64,000 nucleotides of DNA from Candidatus Nitrosopelagicus sp. (GTDB lineage: Archaea > Thermoproteota > Nitrososphaeria > Nitrososphaerales > Nitrosopumilaceae): contig JAOMEP010000002.1 of NCBI GenBank assembly GCA_028345965.1, positions 1 through 64,000 of the forward strand, read 5' to 3'. The notes below the pieces were generated by a model that ran no database searches, was not told where the DNA came from, and saw only the letters and a list, made by a program, of their open reading frames with translations. The position numbers and the translations under genes are program-made. Positions 6,000 to 16,597 of this stretch are shown here, piece by piece (positions within the stretch are counted from its first letter, which is position 1; every line of letters starts with the position of its first letter).

Positions 6000-7319
6000 A
6001 TGGCTGATTCAAACAAAGATTCGTATGACAAGATTTTCACCAGTCTTGAAAAACACCATGAATGGTTTGAAAACTCTATTCCACTAATTGCTAGTGAGAA
6101 CATTCCTAGTCCAGCTGTCAGAGAGGCAGTAATGTCAGATTTTGGTAATAGATATGCCGAAGGTTGGCCAGGTGAGCGAGTCTATGCAGGATGTACCTAC
6201 ATCGATGAGGTTGAAATTCAATGTATGGAGTTGGCACAAAAATTATTCGATGCAGAGTTTGCAGATGTAAGAAGTGTTTCTGGTGTAGTGGCAAACTTGG
6301 CAATTTATTCTGCTTATTCAAATCCAGGTGATGTTATGATTGCATCATCAATTCCTGCAGGAGGTCACATTTCTCATGGTAAAAAAGAACATTCAGGAAC
6401 TGCAGGATTAGTACACGGATTAGATATCGAGTTCTTTGCATTTGATCCTGAAGAAATGACATTAGATGTTGATAAAACAAAAGCTAAAGTTGAAGATTTG
6501 AAATCACAAGGGAAATTGCCAAAGATTGCAATGTTTGGTGGTTCAGTATTTTTATTTCCACACCCAGTAAAAGAATTAGCTGAATTTCTAAAGGGTCATG
6601 GCATGCATATCAATTATGATGCAGCACACGTTGCAGGATTAATTGCAGGTGGAAAATTCCAAGACCCACTTAGAGAAGGAACAGATACAATGACAATGAG
6701 TACTCACAAAACTTTGTTCGGACCACAAGGAGGATTAGTTTTAGGATCTGAAGAGCATGCAGAACCAATCAAAAAAGCAATGTTCCCAGGATTAACAAGC
6801 AGTCATCATATTCATCACATGGGTGCAAAGGCAGTTGCATTTGCCGAAGCTTTAGAGTTTGGAAAAGATTATGCAGAACAAACAATCAAGAATGCAAAAG
6901 CATTAGCTTCAGAATTAAACAATGTAGGATTCAAAGTGTTAGGTGAAAAGAGAGGTTACACCGAATCACACCAAACAGTTGTGAATGTTTTAGATTATGG
7001 TGATGGTGGAACAATTGAAGCTGATTTAGAAAAAGCAAACATAATTGTTAATCGTCAACTAATTCCTGGAGATTTGAAAGCAGGTCGTCACTATATGCAT
7101 CCAGGTGGAATTCGTTTGGGAACATCTGAGATTACTCGTCTAGGTATGAAAGAATCTGAGATGAAAGAAATTGCATCTTTGTTGAAACAAGTTGTTGTTG
7201 ATAAGAAAGATGCAGGAGAAATTGCATCATATGTTAAAGAGTTCAAGACCGATTTCAAAAAGACACAATACTGTTTTGATAACAAACTTGGAGCCTACGA
7301 ATACGTAAAATTACGTTAA
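6000..7319 (+). CDS. glyA: Serine hydroxymethyltransferase
   Basis: 439 aa; ENIPSPAVREAV...NRYAEGWPGERVYAGC; PLP lysine region TMSTHKTLFGPQGG. Confidence 0.95.
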   Translation: MADSNKDSYDKIFTSLEKHHEWFENSIPLIASENIPSPAVREAVMSDFGNRYAEGWPGERVYAGCTYIDEVEIQCMELAQKLFDAEFADVRSVSGVVANLAIYSAYSNPGDVMIASSIPAGGHISHGKKEHSGTAGLVHGLDIEFFAFDPEEMTLDVDKTKAKVEDLKSQGKLPKIAMFGGSVFLFPHPVKELAEFLKGHGMHINYDAAHVAGLIAGGKFQDPLREGTDTMTMSTHKTLFGPQGGLVLGSEEHAEPIKKAMFPGLTSSHHIHHMGAKAVAFAEALEFGKDYAEQTIKNAKALASELNNVGFKVLGEKRGYTESHQTVVNVLDYGDGGTIEADLEKANIIVNRQLIPGDLKAGRHYMHPGGIRLGTSEITRLGMKESEMKEIASLLKQVVVDKKDAGEIASYVKEFKTDFKKTQYCFDNKLGAYEYVKLR

Positions 7320-10300
7320 TTTACAAAATCAGTTAGTAGTTGTTGTGAACCATCACCTTTTCCAAAGAGTAGTTCAATTTCATCAGACAAAGTCATGATT
7401 CTTCCTTTCAGATATGGATCCACATCATATTTTGTGACTAGTTTCTTTGCTAATGGCAAATATTTTTCAATTGAAGGTCGAGTAATTGTTTGTAATAGTT
7501 TGTGGCCACAAGTACATTTTTGAAGTAACGGCATTCGTCTATATTTTGCACCACATGCAGTACAACGGAATTTTTGTTTTGCATATGCGCGAATGTTTCC
7601 CATAATATCAGGAATTAGATGTGTTTGTATTAGATATGAAACAATGTCTCTTGTTTCAACTGCATTAATGATATCTGCATTTCTAATTTGCAAATCAAGC
7701 TTGTCAACCATTGATTCGAGTGTCGAGTATGCACTTCGTGATTTTGAAGTAGTTAGTGTTGTTGTATTATGAGTAAAGAAATGATCATAGAAGATATTTT
7801 CATCACCTGTATCTTTTCGCATAGCTAGAGTTTCAATATTTTTGATGTCACCTGATTTCTCATTATTTAATGATGATTCATAAAATTCGAGTGGAAATTC
7901 TTTTGCAACCTCAAAGTTGTGTGCCTGAGTTTGCGCCTCATGTGGCAAAACTATTGGTTGAATTAGTAATGGTGCATCCATTAGTCCACCAATTTTATCA
8001 GACAAGAACTGCCTTGAAAAGTTCAATAATGCATCTAGTAATAGCATGACAGAATCTGCATCACCATCTGCGTCTCTTCTTTTTGCAGAATGCCAAATTG
8101 GACTAGCAAAACAAACATGGGTTTTCGTATAACCAATTAACCTTCCTGTAATTCCTACGGAGGTATGTGGTGCAAGGCCAATAACTAAATGACCTAACAA
8201 ATCCTGTGTATCTTTTAGATTGTAAAATGGTTGTTTGCCAAAAAATTTCTGCAGTTCAAAATCAACATACTTTGAAACATTAACAAGATATTCAGCACTT
8301 TCAAGAGGAATAATTACATCTTGCATCTTTAATTCAATTAATTGTTCATCATTTGTGATTGGATTTCCATCAATATCATTTTCATATCCAAGTTTTGTGA
8401 TTTGCTCGACTGTTGTTCCTATCCAAGAGAGTTTGAAGTGTGTCAAAGGTGAATTTGTAGCATCAAATCGGACAGTGCCGTCTTTGAAGGCAGACAAACC
8501 AAACTTTTGTCTAATTAGTCCTTTTTCAAGAGGTTCTGGGATTTTTTCTTGATTGATTAATTTATCAACACCTTTGAATGGTGCTTTTGCGCGTATCCCA
8601 AGTTTTTCTTGCGCTGCCATCAAATTTTGTTTTAGCGGGAATTGTTTGTAAGAAAATCCATTTGCATCTCTTTTACATTTTTCACAGTGTGGTGTTTCTA
8701 ATTCATCTTTACAAATTCTGCAAATGTAAAATTTTGTAGTTTTATTTCCACATTTTGAACAAACAATCCCAATTGATGGAATATTACAATTTGTACAACG
8801 ACGATTATTCAGATTTGTGAAAAATGATTCTGATGCAACAGCAGCTTTCAAAATATCTCTAGTAATGCCACCTTTTTCTGCAACAGGAAATAGTACATGA
8901 ACTGGCGGTTTCATTAGACGTGGTGCAGCCTTTTCAGGTCTTCCAATTCTAACACCAATTGACTTTGAAAATTTATTCTTTATTTCAATTCCAGTGGTTT
9001 CTGTTAACAGTTCTAAAACAGATTTGGTAGTATCAAAATTCAAGGTAGCACCAAAAATAAGGTGATTTAAGATTTGAACATCTATTCCAGAAATAATGAT
9101 CTTATCATCTGCAACTTTATGTGGGATTCCTAAATTTTCAAGAATTTGTTTTGTCGAAATTTCATAATGAATTTCATTTTCTGATTTTAAGATTGGATTT
9201 GAAATTTTCTCAAGCTCTTTTGTTGTGATAAAATCCCAATAGTAGAGAAATTTTGGATGTAATGGAATTTTCAGTTCTTTTGAAAGTAAAATGGCATCAA
9301 CAAATGTTGGAGTCTTTGTTAGAAATTCGAGTCTTTCGTCATGTTTGGAAAGTTTTGCTTTAAGATGTTCAGTCCAAACCTCTTCTACCATTGGAGTTGG
9401 AATTAATTCTGCATTATTTTCCAAAAAGTCACCAAATGTTATTAGAATATCACCTAGATGCAGAATCTTTTCAATGTCGTTTTTAATCTGAATTCCGTGT
9501 TCTGTATCTTGAATTTTGACTACATCGCCTCCTTTTAGTCTGACAATAGGCGTCTCAAGTGAGTCAACAAAGGCCACAGTTGCTCCTTTGCTTGGTTTGT
9601 CAAGTTTGATTTGTGTTCCTACCGCAATAGTATGATCTAAGATTTCAGCAATCACTGGATGTAACCCAACGCTAGCAAAACCTGTATTGCATGCACGTCC
9701 ATATCTGAGTCGAAAACCTCCAATCTTATTTGGCATTGATAGCACGGAACGCCCAGTAATGACTTCTCTCATACGTTTTTCAGATGCATCATCACCAGAT
9801 TCACCTTTTTGAACAGCACCCTGGACGTCGTTTAGCCACTCCCAACCTTCCAAGTTATACTTTTCAATTCGCTTTAGGAGTTTTTTTGATCTTCCAATTA
9901 ATCCATCATTTAGTACACGTAATGCACCACCTCTTACTCGGTCTGTTTTAATTCGAGTCATGTTACGATGATTAACTACTTCATCGGGGTCTGTTCCTTC
10001 TCCTTCAAGTTCAACAGGTAAGTTTGAAATTACGGTTTTGATGTCATCATCAGATACATGAAATTGAAAACTTTGTTTTGCTTCACTTTCATAGATTCTT
10101 AACTCTTCGACAAATCTTCCAGTCTCATCATCAAAACAATCCGCTTGATATTTTTCGAGTCCAACTGCACGTCTCACATGATCAGCAATTAACATTGTAA
10201 CAGCAGATTCAGTTCCTCCTGCAGATCTCATTGGTCCTGCAATGGATACAGAAAGATACTGAGAGCCATCTTTGTTATTTTTAATTTTAATTTCACTAAT

Positions 10301-10693
10301 TCCTTGTAGGGGGGCAATTGTCACACCTTCTGTTACAATAGCTAATCCAACCCTGACTGCATGATCTAATCTATCTTCTAAACTTGCATCTGGAGATTGG
10401 TACTTTCCTAATGCAATTTCCTTTGACATTATCAAAGCAGCATTTTCTTTTCCGGTTTTATCTAATAATTCGCGAAGGGGCGTAGAAATGTCAATATCAT
10501 GCATTTTAGCTACTCGTTCCGCCAAATCAAATGCGATTTTCGGCTCTATTATTCCAGAAGAGTCTAAAAGCGTTGATTTTGCAACTGCTGCGGTCTCAAA
10601 TTCCTTGTAGACCTGTTGTGATAGTTCTTCATAGTAGTCAGAGTAATTTTGAGGAACCTTGATTTCTTTAAGATAATTTGCGGTAGTAGACAT
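7316..10693 (-). CDS. polC: DNA polymerase D (family D) large subunit DP2
   Basis: 1125 aa; AGPMRSAGGTESAV, RRDADGDADSVMLLLDALLNFSRQFL, C-terminal zinc motifs; no intein apparent. Confidence 0.95.
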   Translation of the reverse strand: MSTTANYLKEIKVPQNYSDYYEELSQQVYKEFETAAVAKSTLLDSSGIIEPKIAFDLAERVAKMHDIDISTPLRELLDKTGKENAALIMSKEIALGKYQSPDASLEDRLDHAVRVGLAIVTEGVTIAPLQGISEIKIKNNKDGSQYLSVSIAGPMRSAGGTESAVTMLIADHVRRAVGLEKYQADCFDDETGRFVEELRIYESEAKQSFQFHVSDDDIKTVISNLPVELEGEGTDPDEVVNHRNMTRIKTDRVRGGALRVLNDGLIGRSKKLLKRIEKYNLEGWEWLNDVQGAVQKGESGDDASEKRMREVITGRSVLSMPNKIGGFRLRYGRACNTGFASVGLHPVIAEILDHTIAVGTQIKLDKPSKGATVAFVDSLETPIVRLKGGDVVKIQDTEHGIQIKNDIEKILHLGDILITFGDFLENNAELIPTPMVEEVWTEHLKAKLSKHDERLEFLTKTPTFVDAILLSKELKIPLHPKFLYYWDFITTKELEKISNPILKSENEIHYEISTKQILENLGIPHKVADDKIIISGIDVQILNHLIFGATLNFDTTKSVLELLTETTGIEIKNKFSKSIGVRIGRPEKAAPRLMKPPVHVLFPVAEKGGITRDILKAAVASESFFTNLNNRRCTNCNIPSIGIVCSKCGNKTTKFYICRICKDELETPHCEKCKRDANGFSYKQFPLKQNLMAAQEKLGIRAKAPFKGVDKLINQEKIPEPLEKGLIRQKFGLSAFKDGTVRFDATNSPLTHFKLSWIGTTVEQITKLGYENDIDGNPITNDEQLIELKMQDVIIPLESAEYLVNVSKYVDFELQKFFGKQPFYNLKDTQDLLGHLVIGLAPHTSVGITGRLIGYTKTHVCFASPIWHSAKRRDADGDADSVMLLLDALLNFSRQFLSDKIGGLMDAPLLIQPIVLPHEAQTQAHNFEVAKEFPLEFYESSLNNEKSGDIKNIETLAMRKDTGDENIFYDHFFTHNTTTLTTSKSRSAYSTLESMVDKLDLQIRNADIINAVETRDIVSYLIQTHLIPDIMGNIRAYAKQKFRCTACGAKYRRMPLLQKCTCGHKLLQTITRPSIEKYLPLAKKLVTKYDVDPYLKGRIMTLSDEIELLFGKGDGSQQLLTDFVN

Positions 10694-10701
10694 GTAGAAG
10701 G

Positions 10702-11442
10702 TTAGTTTTTGATGGCTTTGGCTATTTCGGTTAGTTTTTCCAAGTTCTTACTATCCTCAAGAAGGGTTCCAATTACCAAAGCATCTGCTCCTGCATCAGT
10801 TAATGATTTTGCGGTTTGAGCATCACGAATGCCTCCACCTACGATTAAAAATCCTTGAAAGACCTTTCTTACAGTTGCAACCATTTCTGGAGTTACGTTG
10901 GTTTTTGCACCAGAACCTGCCTCCAAATAGACAAATCTCATACCAAGGAATTGGGCTGCTAAAGAGTATGCAGCTGCGATTTTCGGCTTATCAAATGGTA
11001 TCCCTCTAACATTACCTACAAACCAAGCAGATGTGCCTTCTCCAATCACCAAATAGGATGTTGGGAGAGGTTCTAAACCAAATTTGAGGACGTTTGGAGC
11101 ACCAAGGGCTTGTGCCTGTGTGATGTAATATGGATTCTCAGAGTTCATTAAGGAACTAAACAGTATGGCGTCTGCCTGAGGCACAACGCCGGTAATGTTG
11201 CCAGGAAATAGAATAATTGGAATATTTACTGCACTTTTGAGGTTTTTGACTACCTCGGCCATCTCCATCTGATCAGTTGCAGATGAACCACCTACCAGTA
11301 TTGATGTGGCACCTATTTCCTCAACATCTTTGGCTAGTTTTACAGCAGAATCTATCTGAGATACCTCTGAATCGATTAATACGAATAGTAATGGTGATTT
11401 TTTACGCTCAGAAATGAGTAATTCTTCTACTTTTCCAGTCAT
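10702..11442 (-). CDS. Geranylgeranylglyceryl phosphate synthase
   Basis: 246 aa TIM-barrel; YLEAGSGA, VGGGIRDAQTAKSLTDAGADALVIGT. Confidence 0.9.
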   Translation of the reverse strand: MTGKVEELLISERKKSPLLFVLIDSEVSQIDSAVKLAKDVEEIGATSILVGGSSATDQMEMAEVVKNLKSAVNIPIILFPGNITGVVPQADAILFSSLMNSENPYYITQAQALGAPNVLKFGLEPLPTSYLVIGEGTSAWFVGNVRGIPFDKPKIAAAYSLAAQFLGMRFVYLEAGSGAKTNVTPEMVATVRKVFQGFLIVGGGIRDAQTAKSLTDAGADALVIGTLLEDSKNLEKLTEIAKAIKN

Positions 11443-11506
11443 GCTTCACGTTTAATGATGACCCTTTAAGTTTTATTCAAGTATCGGTATACAGATTTGT
11501 ATAGCT

Positions 11507-11869
11507 ATGAGCGACCTTAGTAATTCTAATTTTTCTAATATTTTAAAGGAAATCATCAAAAAATCACTGTTTACAGAGAGACAAATTGAAATTATTCTAA
11601 AATCAAAGAATCTTTCTGATGTCGAATTTACTATGACTAAAGGCGCCTATTACAGGCAGGTTTCTCAGTCCAGGAATAAGCTTTCAGGCTTGTATTATTC
11701 ATTCATAGTTCTAGGCATACTAGGCGTGGTTTTGCCTGATGATATTGATGTAATATCACAACTTTCCGAACGAATGAGTGTGATAAAAGATGGTGATGTT
11801 TTCCCTGAGAAGGAACAAGAAATCATTAGTGTGATAGAGCGTGTAGTCAAACAGACTACAGCAATGTGA
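11507..11869 (+). CDS. Hypothetical protein
   Basis: ORF 120 aa, helical, intact frame with its own upstream region. Confidence 0.55.
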   Translation: MSDLSNSNFSNILKEIIKKSLFTERQIEIILKSKNLSDVEFTMTKGAYYRQVSQSRNKLSGLYYSFIVLGILGVVLPDDIDVISQLSERMSVIKDGDVFPEKEQEIISVIERVVKQTTAM

Positions 11870-11983
11870 TTTTGTGCCTATGAGGAATGTTTCTTGTGTA
11901 ATAGTGTGATGAGGTTTTGGTTACTCTAAGTGTGAAATAATGTTGTCCTATCACGATAAATCACAAATTCCTCATGATATGTC

Positions 11984-12577
11984 ATGTTAGTTGAGATTCC
12001 AGACCTAGACGTGATATTCGGTCTCATATTGGCCTTCATAGGCGGATTATTCACATTATTCGTTTATTCTAAATTAAAGGCAGTTTCAGCCTCTAACAAC
12101 CAAACAAAGGCAGATTCAGAGCGTTTAGAATTCTATGAAAGACAGTTAATTGATCTTAAAATCAAATTAGATGCTATTGACTTGGAAAATCTTAGCTTTT
12201 CTCAAGAAATACCACAAAATGTTGTAAGAAATGAGGAAAAAACAGTCCAAGTTGTAGAGAAACAGGTACAAATTGTGCCTGAGCAGGTCCCAGTTCAACC
12301 TAGAGTAGAGAGAACACCTAACATGAGCAGTGGTGATATTGTCGAGGCAGTATTGAGACTAATCACAGACAGGTCACGCACATCACGTGATATTCAAATC
12401 ACACTAGGTAAGAGTAGAGAGCATATTTCCAGGACGATGAAGAAAATGTCTGATGATGGATTGGTGGAGAGAAACACCAACGCAAAACCATACAGCTACT
12501 CAATTACTCAAACTGGCCTTTCCAGGTTGTCTGGAACAGGTACAACACCTCAGACTATAGCCCCACAGACCTCCTAG
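11984..12577 (+). CDS. Membrane-anchored winged-helix protein
   Basis: N-terminal TM, coiled coil, C-terminal wHTH (SSGDIVEAVLRLITDRSRTSRDIQITLGKSREHISRTMKKMSDDGLVERN). Confidence 0.7.
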   Translation: MLVEIPDLDVIFGLILAFIGGLFTLFVYSKLKAVSASNNQTKADSERLEFYERQLIDLKIKLDAIDLENLSFSQEIPQNVVRNEEKTVQVVEKQVQIVPEQVPVQPRVERTPNMSSGDIVEAVLRLITDRSRTSRDIQITLGKSREHISRTMKKMSDDGLVERNTNAKPYSYSITQTGLSRLSGTGTTPQTIAPQTS

Positions 12578-12740
12578 TTGGATAAAATCAAGGTAATTTT
12601 TATGATCTAAAAGGTTTTTTGACTTTATTGAATTGTGTTTGAGATGTTGATTTTTTGGGGCTTTACTCATATTTTCTATTGTAATTTATGATATAATTAT
12701 AAACATAATTAATTAATACTAGTTTATCATATATTATGAT

Positions 12741-12899
12741 ATGAGTGAGGTACCTGAAGAATTAGTAAAGATAACATCAGGTGGAACCATCTCCATACCT
12801 AAGCAATTTAGACGATATTTAGAGATGCAGAAGGGTGATTACCTCAAAATAGGCCTGGAAGGAGACCATTTAGTGGTCCGAAAAGTGCGTATTTCTTAG
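12741..12899 (+). CDS. AbrB/SpoVT-fold DNA-binding protein (52 aa)
   Basis: Own translation MSEVPEELVKITSGGTISIPKQFRRYLEMQKGDYLKIGLEGDHLVVRKVRIS*; not in ORF track; swapped-hairpin AbrB pattern. Confidence 0.8.
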   Translation: MSEVPEELVKITSGGTISIPKQFRRYLEMQKGDYLKIGLEGDHLVVRKVRIS

Positions 12900-13297
12900 T
12901 TTTCTGAAAGTTTTGGGGCGGTATTTGTGAGTTTTAGAGTGTGATAAGCCCATTCTCTGCCTTTTTTGGCTCTTTCAACCTTGTTTTTAGAGGTAAATCT
13001 GGCCAAATATGTCGAAATTACACTAAGTTTGATTGGTTGGTTGTACTCATCCTCATACTTCTCTAGTATGTCTGAAGAGGTGAATTTGCCGGTTGGGTAG
13101 TATTTGTCTACTATATGCCATATCTTACCCCCAACTGACTCTACCCCAGGGTTGTCTGCGGTTTCTTCAATATTCATCAAGTCTAGTAAATCGAAAATTT
13201 TGAGGACTTTATCACGATTGATGTTACCCTCCAAGTTGAACTTGTATTTGGCTCCATCCTTGTCCTCTAGATCTATTCTAATTCTTTTTCCTGCCAT
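12896..13297 (-). CDS. Hypothetical protein, possible winged-helix C-terminal region
   Basis: ORF 133 aa; conserved-looking helical C-terminal half. Confidence 0.55.
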   Translation of the reverse strand: MAGKRIRIDLEDKDGAKYKFNLEGNINRDKVLKIFDLLDLMNIEETADNPGVESVGGKIWHIVDKYYPTGKFTSSDILEKYEDEYNQPIKLSVISTYLARFTSKNKVERAKKGREWAYHTLKLTNTAPKLSEN

Positions 13298-13451
13298 TCA
13301 GATCAATTAGGATCCAACCTTAACTCATCAACTGATCTTCTGAGATTTGTTAACTAACAGGTTTGTTAACATTGACTGCCTAGCCCACGCCTGAGTGTTT
13401 TTTTGTTATTAACAAAATCATTCCTATACCCTCTAAAATTGGGGTGATTTT

Positions 13452-13484
13452 ACGCCTAGACTGGAAATAAAGGGGTGATTTTAC
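13452..13484 (+). repeat. ORB-like element 1: ACGCCTAGACTGGAAATAAAGGGGTGATTTTAC
   Basis: 18-bp exact repeat with 13513..13530 plus G-string; GGGGTGATTTTAC also at 13441..13453. Confidence 0.75.
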
Positions 13485-13512
13485 AATGTTAACAATGTTA
13501 ACAGCCATCTTC

Positions 13513-13537
13513 ACGCCTAGACTGGAAATATGGGGGT
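13513..13537 (+). repeat. ORB-like element 2: ACGCCTAGACTGGAAATATGGGGGT
   Basis: Exact ACGCCTAGACTGGAAATA copy followed by G-string. Confidence 0.75.
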
Positions 13538-13660
13538 AAAATGGGCTTCTTTTCACTTTCCTTAACACATCCTTAACAGTTGTTAACTACCTTCCAGGCC
13601 TTTTAGTTTTTTATAAAATTCCCTCACAAATTTCATTTTTTGTTTTTATTTTTTGATATC

Positions 13661-13687
13661 CCACACACCTATCTTTCCAGTGTTGCC
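13661..13687 (-). repeat. Inverted ORB-like element (revcomp GGCAACACTGGAAAGATAGGTGTGTGG)
   Basis: ACTGGAAA core plus G-rich flank in opposite orientation across the AT-rich stretch. Confidence 0.55.
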
Positions 13688-13769
13688 TTTTCTAATTTTT
13701 TTTAAATGAGAATTCATATTCATACTAATTTTATTTTATTTTATTATACAATCTAGTTTATCATTAGAA

Positions 13770-15125
13770 ATGAAGGTGTCTGGGAGCGATCCTATCGATC
13801 TGAGAAGAGTCAACAAGAACGATCAGTCTTGTGAAGTTTTTCAAAAAGATCAGTTGAACTGTTGTTTTGAAATACAATATGATCTCAACATGAGTACAAC
13901 CACCATCGATCCAATTGACCGTCTTTTAGATGCAGCCCAAAACGGCAAAACCCTAATCAAGAATAGAGACGTACTTCACTTCACATTTATGCCTAATCAG
14001 ATACTTCACAGGGACCCTGAGCAGGAAAAAATCACTCAATCTTTACTTCCAATTTTAATGGAATCAAGACCATCAAACTTACTGGTGTATGGCAAGCCTG
14101 GAACAGGCAAGACTCTGGTAATTAAGAAAGTACTCTCAAAAATCCAAAAAAGGGTTGAAGAGGGATCATTTCCAATTAAACTAGCATATACAAACGCAAA
14201 ACAAGAGACAACCCTATACGGACTATTGGTCTCCTTTGGAAGACAACTAGGCCTAGGAAGTCAAAAAACAAACGATGAAAAGATGTGGCTTCCAAGCACA
14301 GGCCTATCAATAAGTGAAGTATTCAACAGAATTCTCTATGTTTTAGACAAGAATGAAACAAACGCAGTATTCGTAATTGATGAAATTGATTACTTGGCAG
14401 AATTAATCCAAAAAACAGGTAAAGATGTTTTATACCAAATTACCAGAGCAAACGAGCGATTAACCACAGGCTCATTAACACTAATTGGTGTATCAAATGA
14501 CCTCACCTTCAAAGAAAGACTAGATCCACGCGTCATTAGCAGTTTGAGTGAAGAAGAAGTCATATTCACAAATTACAATCTACCTCAAATCAAAGAGATA
14601 TTGGATGCCCGAATCGAGGTGGCATTTGAACAAAACATAGTCTCAGATGCAGCATTAAACCTCTGTTCTGCTATGGCTGGAAGAGAATCAGGAGACGCTA
14701 GACGTGCATTGGACCTTCTTCGAGTAGCAGCCGAGATAGCAGAAAGAACCCAAATGCCAACCGTCTCAGAAGACCATATCAGAATGGCAGCAGAAAAGAT
14801 TGAGGAAAACAAAGAGGTTGTAGCACTTCGCTCCTACCCATTACATGAAAAGTTACTAATCTTAGCAATTATGAAATCATCAGAGATATCCACAGGAGAA
14901 GTATATTCAACCTACAAAAATCTCTGTAAAGATATTCGCCAAAAAGAACTCACTCAAAGAAGAGTTACTCAAATGCTCAGTGAGATAGAAATGTCAGGAA
15001 TTATTGCTGGCAGAATCGTCCACCAAGGCACGCATGGAAATACAAAGAAATTCAGAATTACGGTCTCACCAGATATGGTAAAAACTACCTTCAAAGATGA
15101 GATGCTACTACAAGATATCCTCTAA
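13770..15125 (+). CDS. Orc1/Cdc6 family replication initiator (alternative start 13890)
   Basis: AAA+ GKPGTGKT, FVIDEIDYLAE, sensor and C-terminal winged helix; MSTTTIDPIDRLL at 13890 may be the true start. Confidence 0.93.
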   Translation: MKVSGSDPIDLRRVNKNDQSCEVFQKDQLNCCFEIQYDLNMSTTTIDPIDRLLDAAQNGKTLIKNRDVLHFTFMPNQILHRDPEQEKITQSLLPILMESRPSNLLVYGKPGTGKTLVIKKVLSKIQKRVEEGSFPIKLAYTNAKQETTLYGLLVSFGRQLGLGSQKTNDEKMWLPSTGLSISEVFNRILYVLDKNETNAVFVIDEIDYLAELIQKTGKDVLYQITRANERLTTGSLTLIGVSNDLTFKERLDPRVISSLSEEEVIFTNYNLPQIKEILDARIEVAFEQNIVSDAALNLCSAMAGRESGDARRALDLLRVAAEIAERTQMPTVSEDHIRMAAEKIEENKEVVALRSYPLHEKLLILAIMKSSEISTGEVYSTYKNLCKDIRQKELTQRRVTQMLSEIEMSGIIAGRIVHQGTHGNTKKFRITVSPDMVKTTFKDEMLLQDIL

Positions 15126-16597
15126 CTGAGTTGTTGTGGCTCTGCATGTTTTGGTTCAATAAAGTCTGACTCTTGAACACGAAAATCCTTTTGGTAAACC
15201 TTCATTGTTTGTAGATTTACTATAATGGCCATTCCTGGGGTGGGTGTAATTCCTACACTTTCTTGGAAATCTGTCTGTCTTTGCCAAGCTCCTGAATTGA
15301 CTATCAAAACCCCTTTGTACATGTCTAGTCCCACAAAATGAACATGTCCTGAATGGAAGATGTCTGGAATATCATCAATTACCATCATATCTTCAGTTTC
15401 TGGTGCAATTGGGGTTCTACTTCCGTAAATCGGGCTCATATGTCTGGCTTTAAGAAAATGTCTCATTACAGCAGCTGGCTTGTCATAACTAACTCCAGGT
15501 GTGGTTCTGACCACATCATCTATTGATTGGCCATGATACATCAAAACCTTAACTCCGTTTAGTGAAACCATTGATGGATTTCCTAACATGAAGAAATTCT
15601 CCCTATCCCATAATTGAGAATTGTATATCTTTGGGATTGCAGGTTGTGGAAGAGCCTTTCTTCCTGCATCGTGGTTTCCAGATATGAGAAATACTTTGAT
15701 GTGCTTTGGTATCTTATCTAAAACCTCAAATGATTTTTTTAGTTGATCTTCTGTAGTGAATTGATTCAAAGTTTTTTCTTGGTTTGGGAAAACCCCAACT
15801 CCTTCTATCAAATCACCGCCTATTACAATAAATCTAATTTTTCTAGCTATTGGGTCTGCACTTGAAATCCAGTTGATAAATTCTGATAACTCCTCTTCCA
15901 TGAAGAACTTACTTCCAACATGCAAATCTGATAAAAATACAGCATAAGTCTCAGTTTTTGAGCGATTTGTGGTATGTTCTGGTATGTCTGGGAGAAGAAT
16001 TTCTTTTGCAAAAAATCCACCATTTTTGGCAGGAACTATCTTAAACATTGCAAATTGGTCCATGAGTAAAGTATCTGCGGTATCTTTCAAGTCTCCTTCA
16101 AAGACCACTATCTCCATTGAACTGGTAGGGTCTTCTAGAGTGATTTTTGTAATATTTCTATCCGACTTTCTATCTGAAACTAATCCCCACACGAATAATT
16201 CATCATCATTTTTTGTGGTTGATTTGACAGATTCAATATCTTTGATCTTTTTTGATTCTGGTCTATCAGACATTATTTGTTTTAATTTGTTAAATCTGCT
16301 AGCAAATAATTTGCCATATCCCTCCACACCTTCTGCTGAAGTAATCTTATCTGTAGGATCTGATAAAATCTCAAATTCCACCTGATGTTCTTCATCATCC
16401 TTTATTCCCAGATAAATCTCAAAATCTTCTTCATTTATCAAAAATTGCTTTTGTTTTGTCTTTTCTTTAACTACATCTTTGATAATCTGAGCCAATTCTT
16501 TAACGTTAATTTTATGTAAAATTTCTAGTGCATCTGGATGGATCTGAAATCCTTTATTTAATGCATAACTAACAGCTGAGGAAATTTCTTCATCCAT
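15122..16597 (-). CDS. polB: DNA polymerase D small subunit DP1
   Basis: 491 aa; phosphoesterase motifs LSDLHVG, GGDLIEG, SGNHDAGR, HSGHVH. Confidence 0.93.
   Translation of the reverse strand: MDEEISSAVSYALNKGFQIHPDALEILHKINVKELAQIIKDVVKEKTKQKQFLINEEDFEIYLGIKDDEEHQVEFEILSDPTDKITSAEGVEGYGKLFASRFNKLKQIMSDRPESKKIKDIESVKSTTKNDDELFVWGLVSDRKSDRNITKITLEDPTSSMEIVVFEGDLKDTADTLLMDQFAMFKIVPAKNGGFFAKEILLPDIPEHTTNRSKTETYAVFLSDLHVGSKFFMEEELSEFINWISSADPIARKIRFIVIGGDLIEGVGVFPNQEKTLNQFTTEDQLKKSFEVLDKIPKHIKVFLISGNHDAGRKALPQPAIPKIYNSQLWDRENFFMLGNPSMVSLNGVKVLMYHGQSIDDVVRTTPGVSYDKPAAVMRHFLKARHMSPIYGSRTPIAPETEDMMVIDDIPDIFHSGHVHFVGLDMYKGVLIVNSGAWQRQTDFQESVGITPTPGMAIIVNLQTMKVYQKDFRVQESDFIEPKHAEPQQLS

Follow-up and report, generated by a model that had tools for sequence, protein, structure and literature searches.

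Does the intergenic DNA beside orc1/cdc6 in Candidatus Nitrosopelagicus hold the chromosomal replication origin, and how might its firing be controlled? Ammonia-oxidizing Nitrosopumilaceae rank with the most abundant ocean cells, but the means by which they restrict replication to one round per cycle are unknown. We analyzed a 64-kb window, the whole stretch of DNA studied here, which is contig C12 of a 1.0-Mb draft genome that is 72% complete. An initial annotation, made from the sequence alone, had inferred a chromosomal oriC at this locus. Our analysis supports that inference: the sole orc1/cdc6 gene adjoins the site, the origin recognition boxes (ORBs) and their G-strings lie near the DoriC consensus, and elements and spacing are kept across about 20 genera. 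We conclude that positions 13298-13889 are very probably the chromosomal replication origin of this Ca. Nitrosopelagicus species (Table 1), an assignment we regard as well supported.

Table 1. Features of the candidate origin and its flanking genes (window coordinates).
Feature	Position	Strand	Description and basis
Conserved divergent gene, 133 aa	12896..13297	-	C-terminal winged helix-turn-helix; weak fold matches
Whole candidate chromosomal origin	13298..13889		Winged-helix start codon to predicted true orc1 start codon; intergenic in relatives
Left arm (winged-helix leader)	13297..13382	-	GATC at 13301, 13311, 13334; two GTTAACAAA repeats
ORB-A	13449..13476	+	Long class TTCACGCCTRGASTGGAAATAAAGGGGT; 165 +/- about 10 bp from winged-helix start codon across the family
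TGTTAACA pair, between ORB-A and ORB-B	13487..13503		Sequence; similar pair in relatives
ORB-B	13510..13537	+	Long class TTCACGCCTRGASTGGAAATAAAGGGGT; 61 bp from ORB-A
ORB-C	13660..13681	-	Short class ACTGGAAAGATAGGTGTGTGGG
Likely duplex unwinding element	13688..13756		Between ORB-C and ORB-D; least stable, most AT-rich
ORB-D	13766..13784	+	Short class AGAAATGAAGGTGTCTGGG; inverted relative to ORB-C; absent from the initial annotation
Spurious N-terminal extension of longest Orc1 ORF	13770..13889	+	Noncoding; holds ORB-D and right arm
Right arm (orc1 leader)	13785..13889	+	GATC at 13788, 13797, 13821, 13848, 13881; inverted copy of left arm
orc1/cdc6, 411 aa	13890..15125	+	Only copy found in genome; profile and homology

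The initiator gene and its surroundings

The gene on the right-hand side of the site encodes an initiator protein that scores well above the TIGR02928 cut-off (344 bits against 181). Its best solved structures are 2qby_A (1e-79) and 2v1u (9e-74), which we take to be S. solfataricus Cdc6-1 and A. pernix Cdc6/Orc1, and it is up to 100% identical in the nearest named relatives of the source genome, Ca. Nitrosopelagicus single-cell genomes and MAGs. The longest open reading frame begins at 13770, and the corresponding frame contains stop codons in relatives (e.g. L017 and L018); translated from the ATG at 13890 (MSTTTIDPIDRLLDAA...), the protein aligns with its relatives throughout. Judged from these comparisons, the true orc1 start is predicted to be this ATG, and the 120 bp upstream of it to be origin DNA. 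The stop codons in relatives and the alignment from 13890 are thus our grounds for extending the origin to 13889.

On the left-hand side, the winged-helix protein has no Pfam match and no informative sequence match. Its AF2 model has a mean pLDDT of 74, and fold matches to wHTH repressors are weak. The gene adjoins orc1 throughout the Nitrosopumilaceae and in most sampled families of the order. In one lineage, L112 (G048:C15:1018-2278), it is co-oriented with orc1 and an ORB lies upstream of the winged-helix gene, a layout which suggests that the origin there tracks the winged-helix gene rather than orc1. The wider surroundings are also rich in replication genes: the two subunits of DNA polymerase D are encoded on either side of the origin (DP2 at 7316-10693, DP1 at 15122-16597), and this neighborhood (7316-16597) is mostly retained in relatives. 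A 52-aa AbrB/MazE-like protein is encoded at 12741-12899, between the winged-helix gene and an HTH gene, in a position conserved in most of the family.

The anchored elements of 13298-13889 are kept in relatives, in 77 Nitrosopumilaceae origins and about 20 genera, and conservation in relatives, a check proposed by the initial annotation, was therefore passed strongly. The skew inflection also proposed there did not materialize. Sampling 20 stretches per relative (20 x 20 kb for the complete genome G025), we observed negative GC skew on either side of orc1 in G025, with a cumulative minimum near 480 kb and a maximum near 1.0 Mb, and no inflection at orc1. The 20 stretches sampled from the relative G033 gave no clear skew and no inflection at orc1 either, and GC and GGGT skew were dropped as origin markers. 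The failed test counts against the assignment, but in archaea GC skew is an unreliable marker, an inflection at the origin being frequent but not defining.

Because the source genome is only a 72%-complete draft, a second orc1 or origin could be absent from the assembly and have been overlooked; the complete relative G025 has one orc1 too. For Nitrosopumilus maritimus, a member of the same family, marker-frequency mapping gave a single origin (Pelve et al. 2013, via PMC4010727 and PMC5333045), and ORB repeats adjoining cdc6 are cited as its landmark (PMC5797428). The ORB-plus-orc1 layout is also found in sampled Nitrosopumilus-like relatives.

Two ORB classes and a likely unwinding element

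Re-reading of the sequence bore out the repeats on which the initial annotation relied: ACGCCTAGACTGGAAATA occurs exactly at 13452 and 13513, GGGGTGATTTTAC at 13441 and 13472, and ACTGGAAAGATAGG in the opposite orientation on the minus strand at 13668-13681. Relatives do not conserve the second copy of GGGGTGATTTTAC. The ACGCCTAGACTGGAAATA copies sit within a 28-bp direct repeat, ORB-A and ORB-B, whose copies are 89% identical. A 32-column matrix built from 136 sites of relatives, some of them near-identical, gave only two matches of at least 2 bits in 64 kb, at 48.2 and 47.5 bits, over a background with a mean of -84.5 and a standard deviation of 16.2. The ORB-A/B repeat is more than chance. 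Its core, TGGAAANNNNGGGGT, occurs exactly twice in the source genome, both times at the origin, and exactly twice per genome, always at the origin, in six of the seven genomes tested; the seventh, from another family, has a single match, which lies elsewhere. The spacing between ORB-A and ORB-B is 61-62 bp in all 20 lineages in which both were recognized. A loose scan for ACTGGAAA-N5-GGGGT with 3 mismatches was uninformative, showing no enrichment (13 found against 10.7 expected), and a scan for TGTTAACA with 1 mismatch showed none over the whole window, despite which GTTAAC-like sites recur at the origin.

With their TGGAAA core and G-string, the repeated ORBs come close to known archaeal elements. 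ORB-A differs from the common ORB of DoriC, TCCA[CG]T[TG]GAAA[TC][GA]AAGGGGT, at two left-half letters only. The site resembles Sulfolobus oriC1, Pyrococcus and haloarchaeal oriC1 in its TGGAAA-type ORBs with G-strings, in the inverted ORBs around an AT-rich element and in the adjacent orc1/cdc6. Unlike canonical archaeal ORB origins, it has two distinct ORB classes (A/B and C/D) and a 5' extension, CACGCC, and the TCCA left half has drifted: the canonical TCCACTGGAAA, which certain other families of the order still have (L031, for instance), is replaced in Nitrosopumilaceae by TAGA/TGGA. A divergent Nitrosopelagicus clade (L021-L025, about 61% Orc1 identity) usually carries an extra ORB-like TGGAAA-N4-GGGGT element 38 bp before ORB-A, and ORB-B is not recognized there at its usual position.

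In 8 of 10 genomes the short-class RGAAANNNNGGTGTSTGNG has exactly two copies, one in each orientation, and all of these lie at the origin. The three ORBs listed initially stand, but there are four in total; the fourth, ORB-D, was overlooked because the Orc1 reading frame had been begun too early. The AT-rich stretch at 13600-13660 that the initial annotation singled out is real, but the interval between ORB-C and ORB-D is more AT-rich, with 60-bp windows reaching 90% A+T. Since ORB-C and ORB-D are inverted around the least stable 60 bp, which fall in this interval in 17 of 21 lineages, we consider it the likelier unwinding element.

We observed directly that the elements are present, unique and conserved, with their spacing and orientation, and that the sole orc1 adjoins them. 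Orc1 would occupy the long, directly repeated ORB-A and ORB-B and the short, inverted ORB-C and ORB-D, would melt the roughly 85-bp AT-rich unwinding element that the latter pair brackets, and would then load MCM. Orc1 binding, unwinding and the existence of a single active origin are inferred, and there are no replication data for the Ca. Nitrosopelagicus organism.

Leader arms at the edges of the origin

In Nitrosopelagicus and several other genera, orc1 and the winged-helix gene have an inverted leader of about 85 bp in common. Model R1 matches the left arm in the source genome with 71.3 bits (E 5e-20) and the right arm at 13805-13888. Anchored at the start codons and compared without gaps, the two leaders are 50% identical over 90 bp in the window and up to 58% identical in relatives; the null comparisons averaged 27% and reached at most about 42%. 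When a model was trained on winged-helix leaders alone, it recovered the copy on the orc1 side in other genera (E values of 7.5e-6, 1.8e-4, 2.2e-4 and 1.8e-3) and did not find it in the window itself. Within single genomes, gapped local alignment of the arms mostly gives weak scores (z 2.8 in the window), so the case for homology rests on the anchored comparison and the winged-helix-only model. A joint leader model, which demonstrates uniqueness and not homology because it was trained on both sides, has strong matches only at the origin in 12 of 13 genomes, with one copy in Nitrosopumilus-like genomes and two in Nitrosopelagicus and several other genera. In sampled Nitrosopumilus-like relatives (e.g. 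G033 and G081) orc1 begins right after ORB-D without a GATC-rich right arm, whereas the Nitrosopelagicus site has an orc1 leader of about 105 bp. We rejected the idea of a genome-wide leader regulon, strong copies lying only at the origin in those 12 of 13 genomes and the residual weak matches looking like chance.

Homologous leaders before both divergent genes, with ORB-D and the right arm immediately upstream of orc1, also speak for the alternative that the elements are only an operator or promoter for Orc1 autoregulation of orc1 and the winged-helix genes, with replication starting elsewhere; the lack of a skew inversion at the site fits this as well. We nevertheless consider such an arrangement very improbable. 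Autoregulation would not need as many as four ORBs of two classes at fixed distances, nor an inverted pair on either side of the least stable DNA; the ORBs are found nowhere else in the genomes; and the single mapped origin of the relative N. maritimus is placed by ORB repeats and cdc6. The arms might instead act as RNA, as structured 5' leaders in a shared untranslated-region regulation, given that the conserved block lies in sense orientation before both start codons. Here RNAalifold, applied to 30 aligned leaders, returned no consensus pair, and we give this explanation hardly any credence. We retain the interpretation of the locus as the chromosomal origin.

GATC sites, a Dam-family methylase and possible control of replication

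The two arms are the only places in the window with at least three GATC sites within 45 bp, and the origin thus contains the GATC clusters looked for in a Dam/SeqA-type origin. Across 22 family lineages, taking one origin each, 100 GATC sites were observed against 26.0 expected from dinucleotide shuffles. The corresponding z of 15.4 is the highest of 16 palindromes, followed by TTAA and CTAG, which are parts of other origin elements; as the sequences are related, this z exaggerates the significance. AGCT is underrepresented at the origins (4 against 15 expected). Outside the family, GATC is not enriched in 11 origins (18 against 14.6 expected). GATC density is 42.6 per kb in the left arm versus 0.36 per kb in the adjacent middle of the origin. 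At the -40 site GATC is invariant in 17/17, with near-random immediate flanks (0.2-0.8 bits), and is followed by a conserved TTSAA at a fixed distance. Where the arms are GATC-rich, both leaders show the recurrent offsets -9 and -42 relative to the start codons, and the register of the start-proximal GATC shifts between genera. The origin of L106 (genome G111) has three GATCs in its left arm.

Of 120 family genomes, nearly all of them at least 90% complete, 112 have a match above the cut-off of the Dam model TIGR00571, with matches in all 20 genera; elsewhere in the order only 3 of 18 sampled genomes do. The source-genome dam (G000:C34:39320-40138) reaches 291 bits against a cut-off of 115, and among solved structures its product is closest to the DpnII methylase (2dpm, 1.9e-66), then to E. 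coli Dam (3.4e-31). Aligned with the latter, the methylase is identical at K9, L122, R124, P134 and Y138 (E. coli numbering), positions which presumably contact GATC (2g1p work), and its GATC specificity is inferred. In a relative, Ca. Nitrosoarchaeum BD3 from Lake Biwa, SMRT sequencing found 98.2% of 9,618 GATC sites methylated as m6A, and the GATC methylase EMGBD3_01960 was not assigned to an RM system (PMC6329791). The source-genome dam and this methylated relative together point to a GATC-specific adenine methylase.

A search limited to DpnII-type enzymes found no DpnII-family restriction endonuclease in 13 of 14 genomes. In G036, the remaining genome, a weak DpnII-like match lies next to Dam, and the origin is without GATC. 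The methylase is thus solitary with respect to this enzyme family, and amoA, not a restriction endonuclease, adjoins dam. In most of the Nitrosopumilaceae loci examined, amoA has a Dam-family gene directly next to it, an odd conserved neighbor for ammonia monooxygenase genes; examples downstream of amoC-amoX-amoA are L196:2299-3162, L197:2282-3145 and L199:2281-3141. A second methylase of about 260 aa, N6_N4_Mtase (PF01555; e.g. G025:C1:875922-876581), is matched strongly in 12 of the 13 family genomes that were searched for it, and may be the enzyme behind the published AGCT m4C mark.

Because the family has a solitary Dam-type GATC methylase, the origin arms are probably methylated. Methylation-dependent control of the origin or of orc1 is a strong hypothesis, and it is untested. 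In its specific form, Nitrosopumilaceae would control replication through the solitary Dam acting on the GATC arrays in the orc1 and winged-helix leaders, with hemimethylation delaying re-initiation or orc1 expression; we advance this tentatively, judging it somewhat more apt to be wrong than right. The arms would make both leaders methylation-sensitive, and the hemimethylated state that follows replication could lower orc1 expression or restrain origin firing. The winged-helix protein is only a candidate for a binder of hemimethylated GATC that sequesters the origin; to our knowledge, no reader protein for the hemimethylated arms and no SeqA counterpart is known. Against such control, the right arm is absent in Nitrosopumilus-like genomes, and some Dam-bearing lineages (L027, L028, L100 and L105) lack the arms. 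These lineages also fit a GATC that is only the core of a transcription-factor operator (GGATCNRTTSAAGTG) to which Dam is unrelated, a reading that disputes the methylation proposal and not the origin. The TTSAA at its fixed distance and the offsets recurring in both leaders favor this operator, whereas a GATC invariant at -40 between poorly conserved flanks, the steep fall in GATC density from left arm to mid-origin, the change of register between genera and the lack of enrichment outside the family, where Dam is rare, count against it. We give the operator slightly less than an even chance.

Like the E. coli oriC/Dam/SeqA system, the origin described here combines a solitary GATC adenine methylase with clusters of GATC both at the origin and upstream of the gene for the initiator. 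It differs in using Orc1 and ORBs, not DnaA and DnaA boxes, and in confining GATC to the edge arms, and hemimethylation control is undemonstrated here. GATC m6A in S. acidocaldarius (PMC5809426) and CTAG/GATC near oriC2 in H. volcanii (PMC5867850) had earlier suggested that methylation touches archaeal replication. Those cases concern regional densities, whereas Nitrosopumilaceae have discrete conserved GATC arrays at the origin edges and a near-universal Dam. We found no description of the two-class ORB layout, the inverted leader arms or the GATC/Dam association in the literature searched, which excluded subscription papers, including Pelve 2013 and Ahlgren 2017.

For the family, the analysis yields a conserved origin map: two classes of ORB with four members in all, a likely unwinding element, and an orc1 gene whose start has been corrected. 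The GATC arms and the near-universal solitary Dam make methylation-timed replication in archaea testable on existing SMRT or nanopore reads. Such control in Nitrosopumilaceae, if true, would be an archaeal counterpart of Dam/SeqA, independently evolved around an Orc1/ORB origin.
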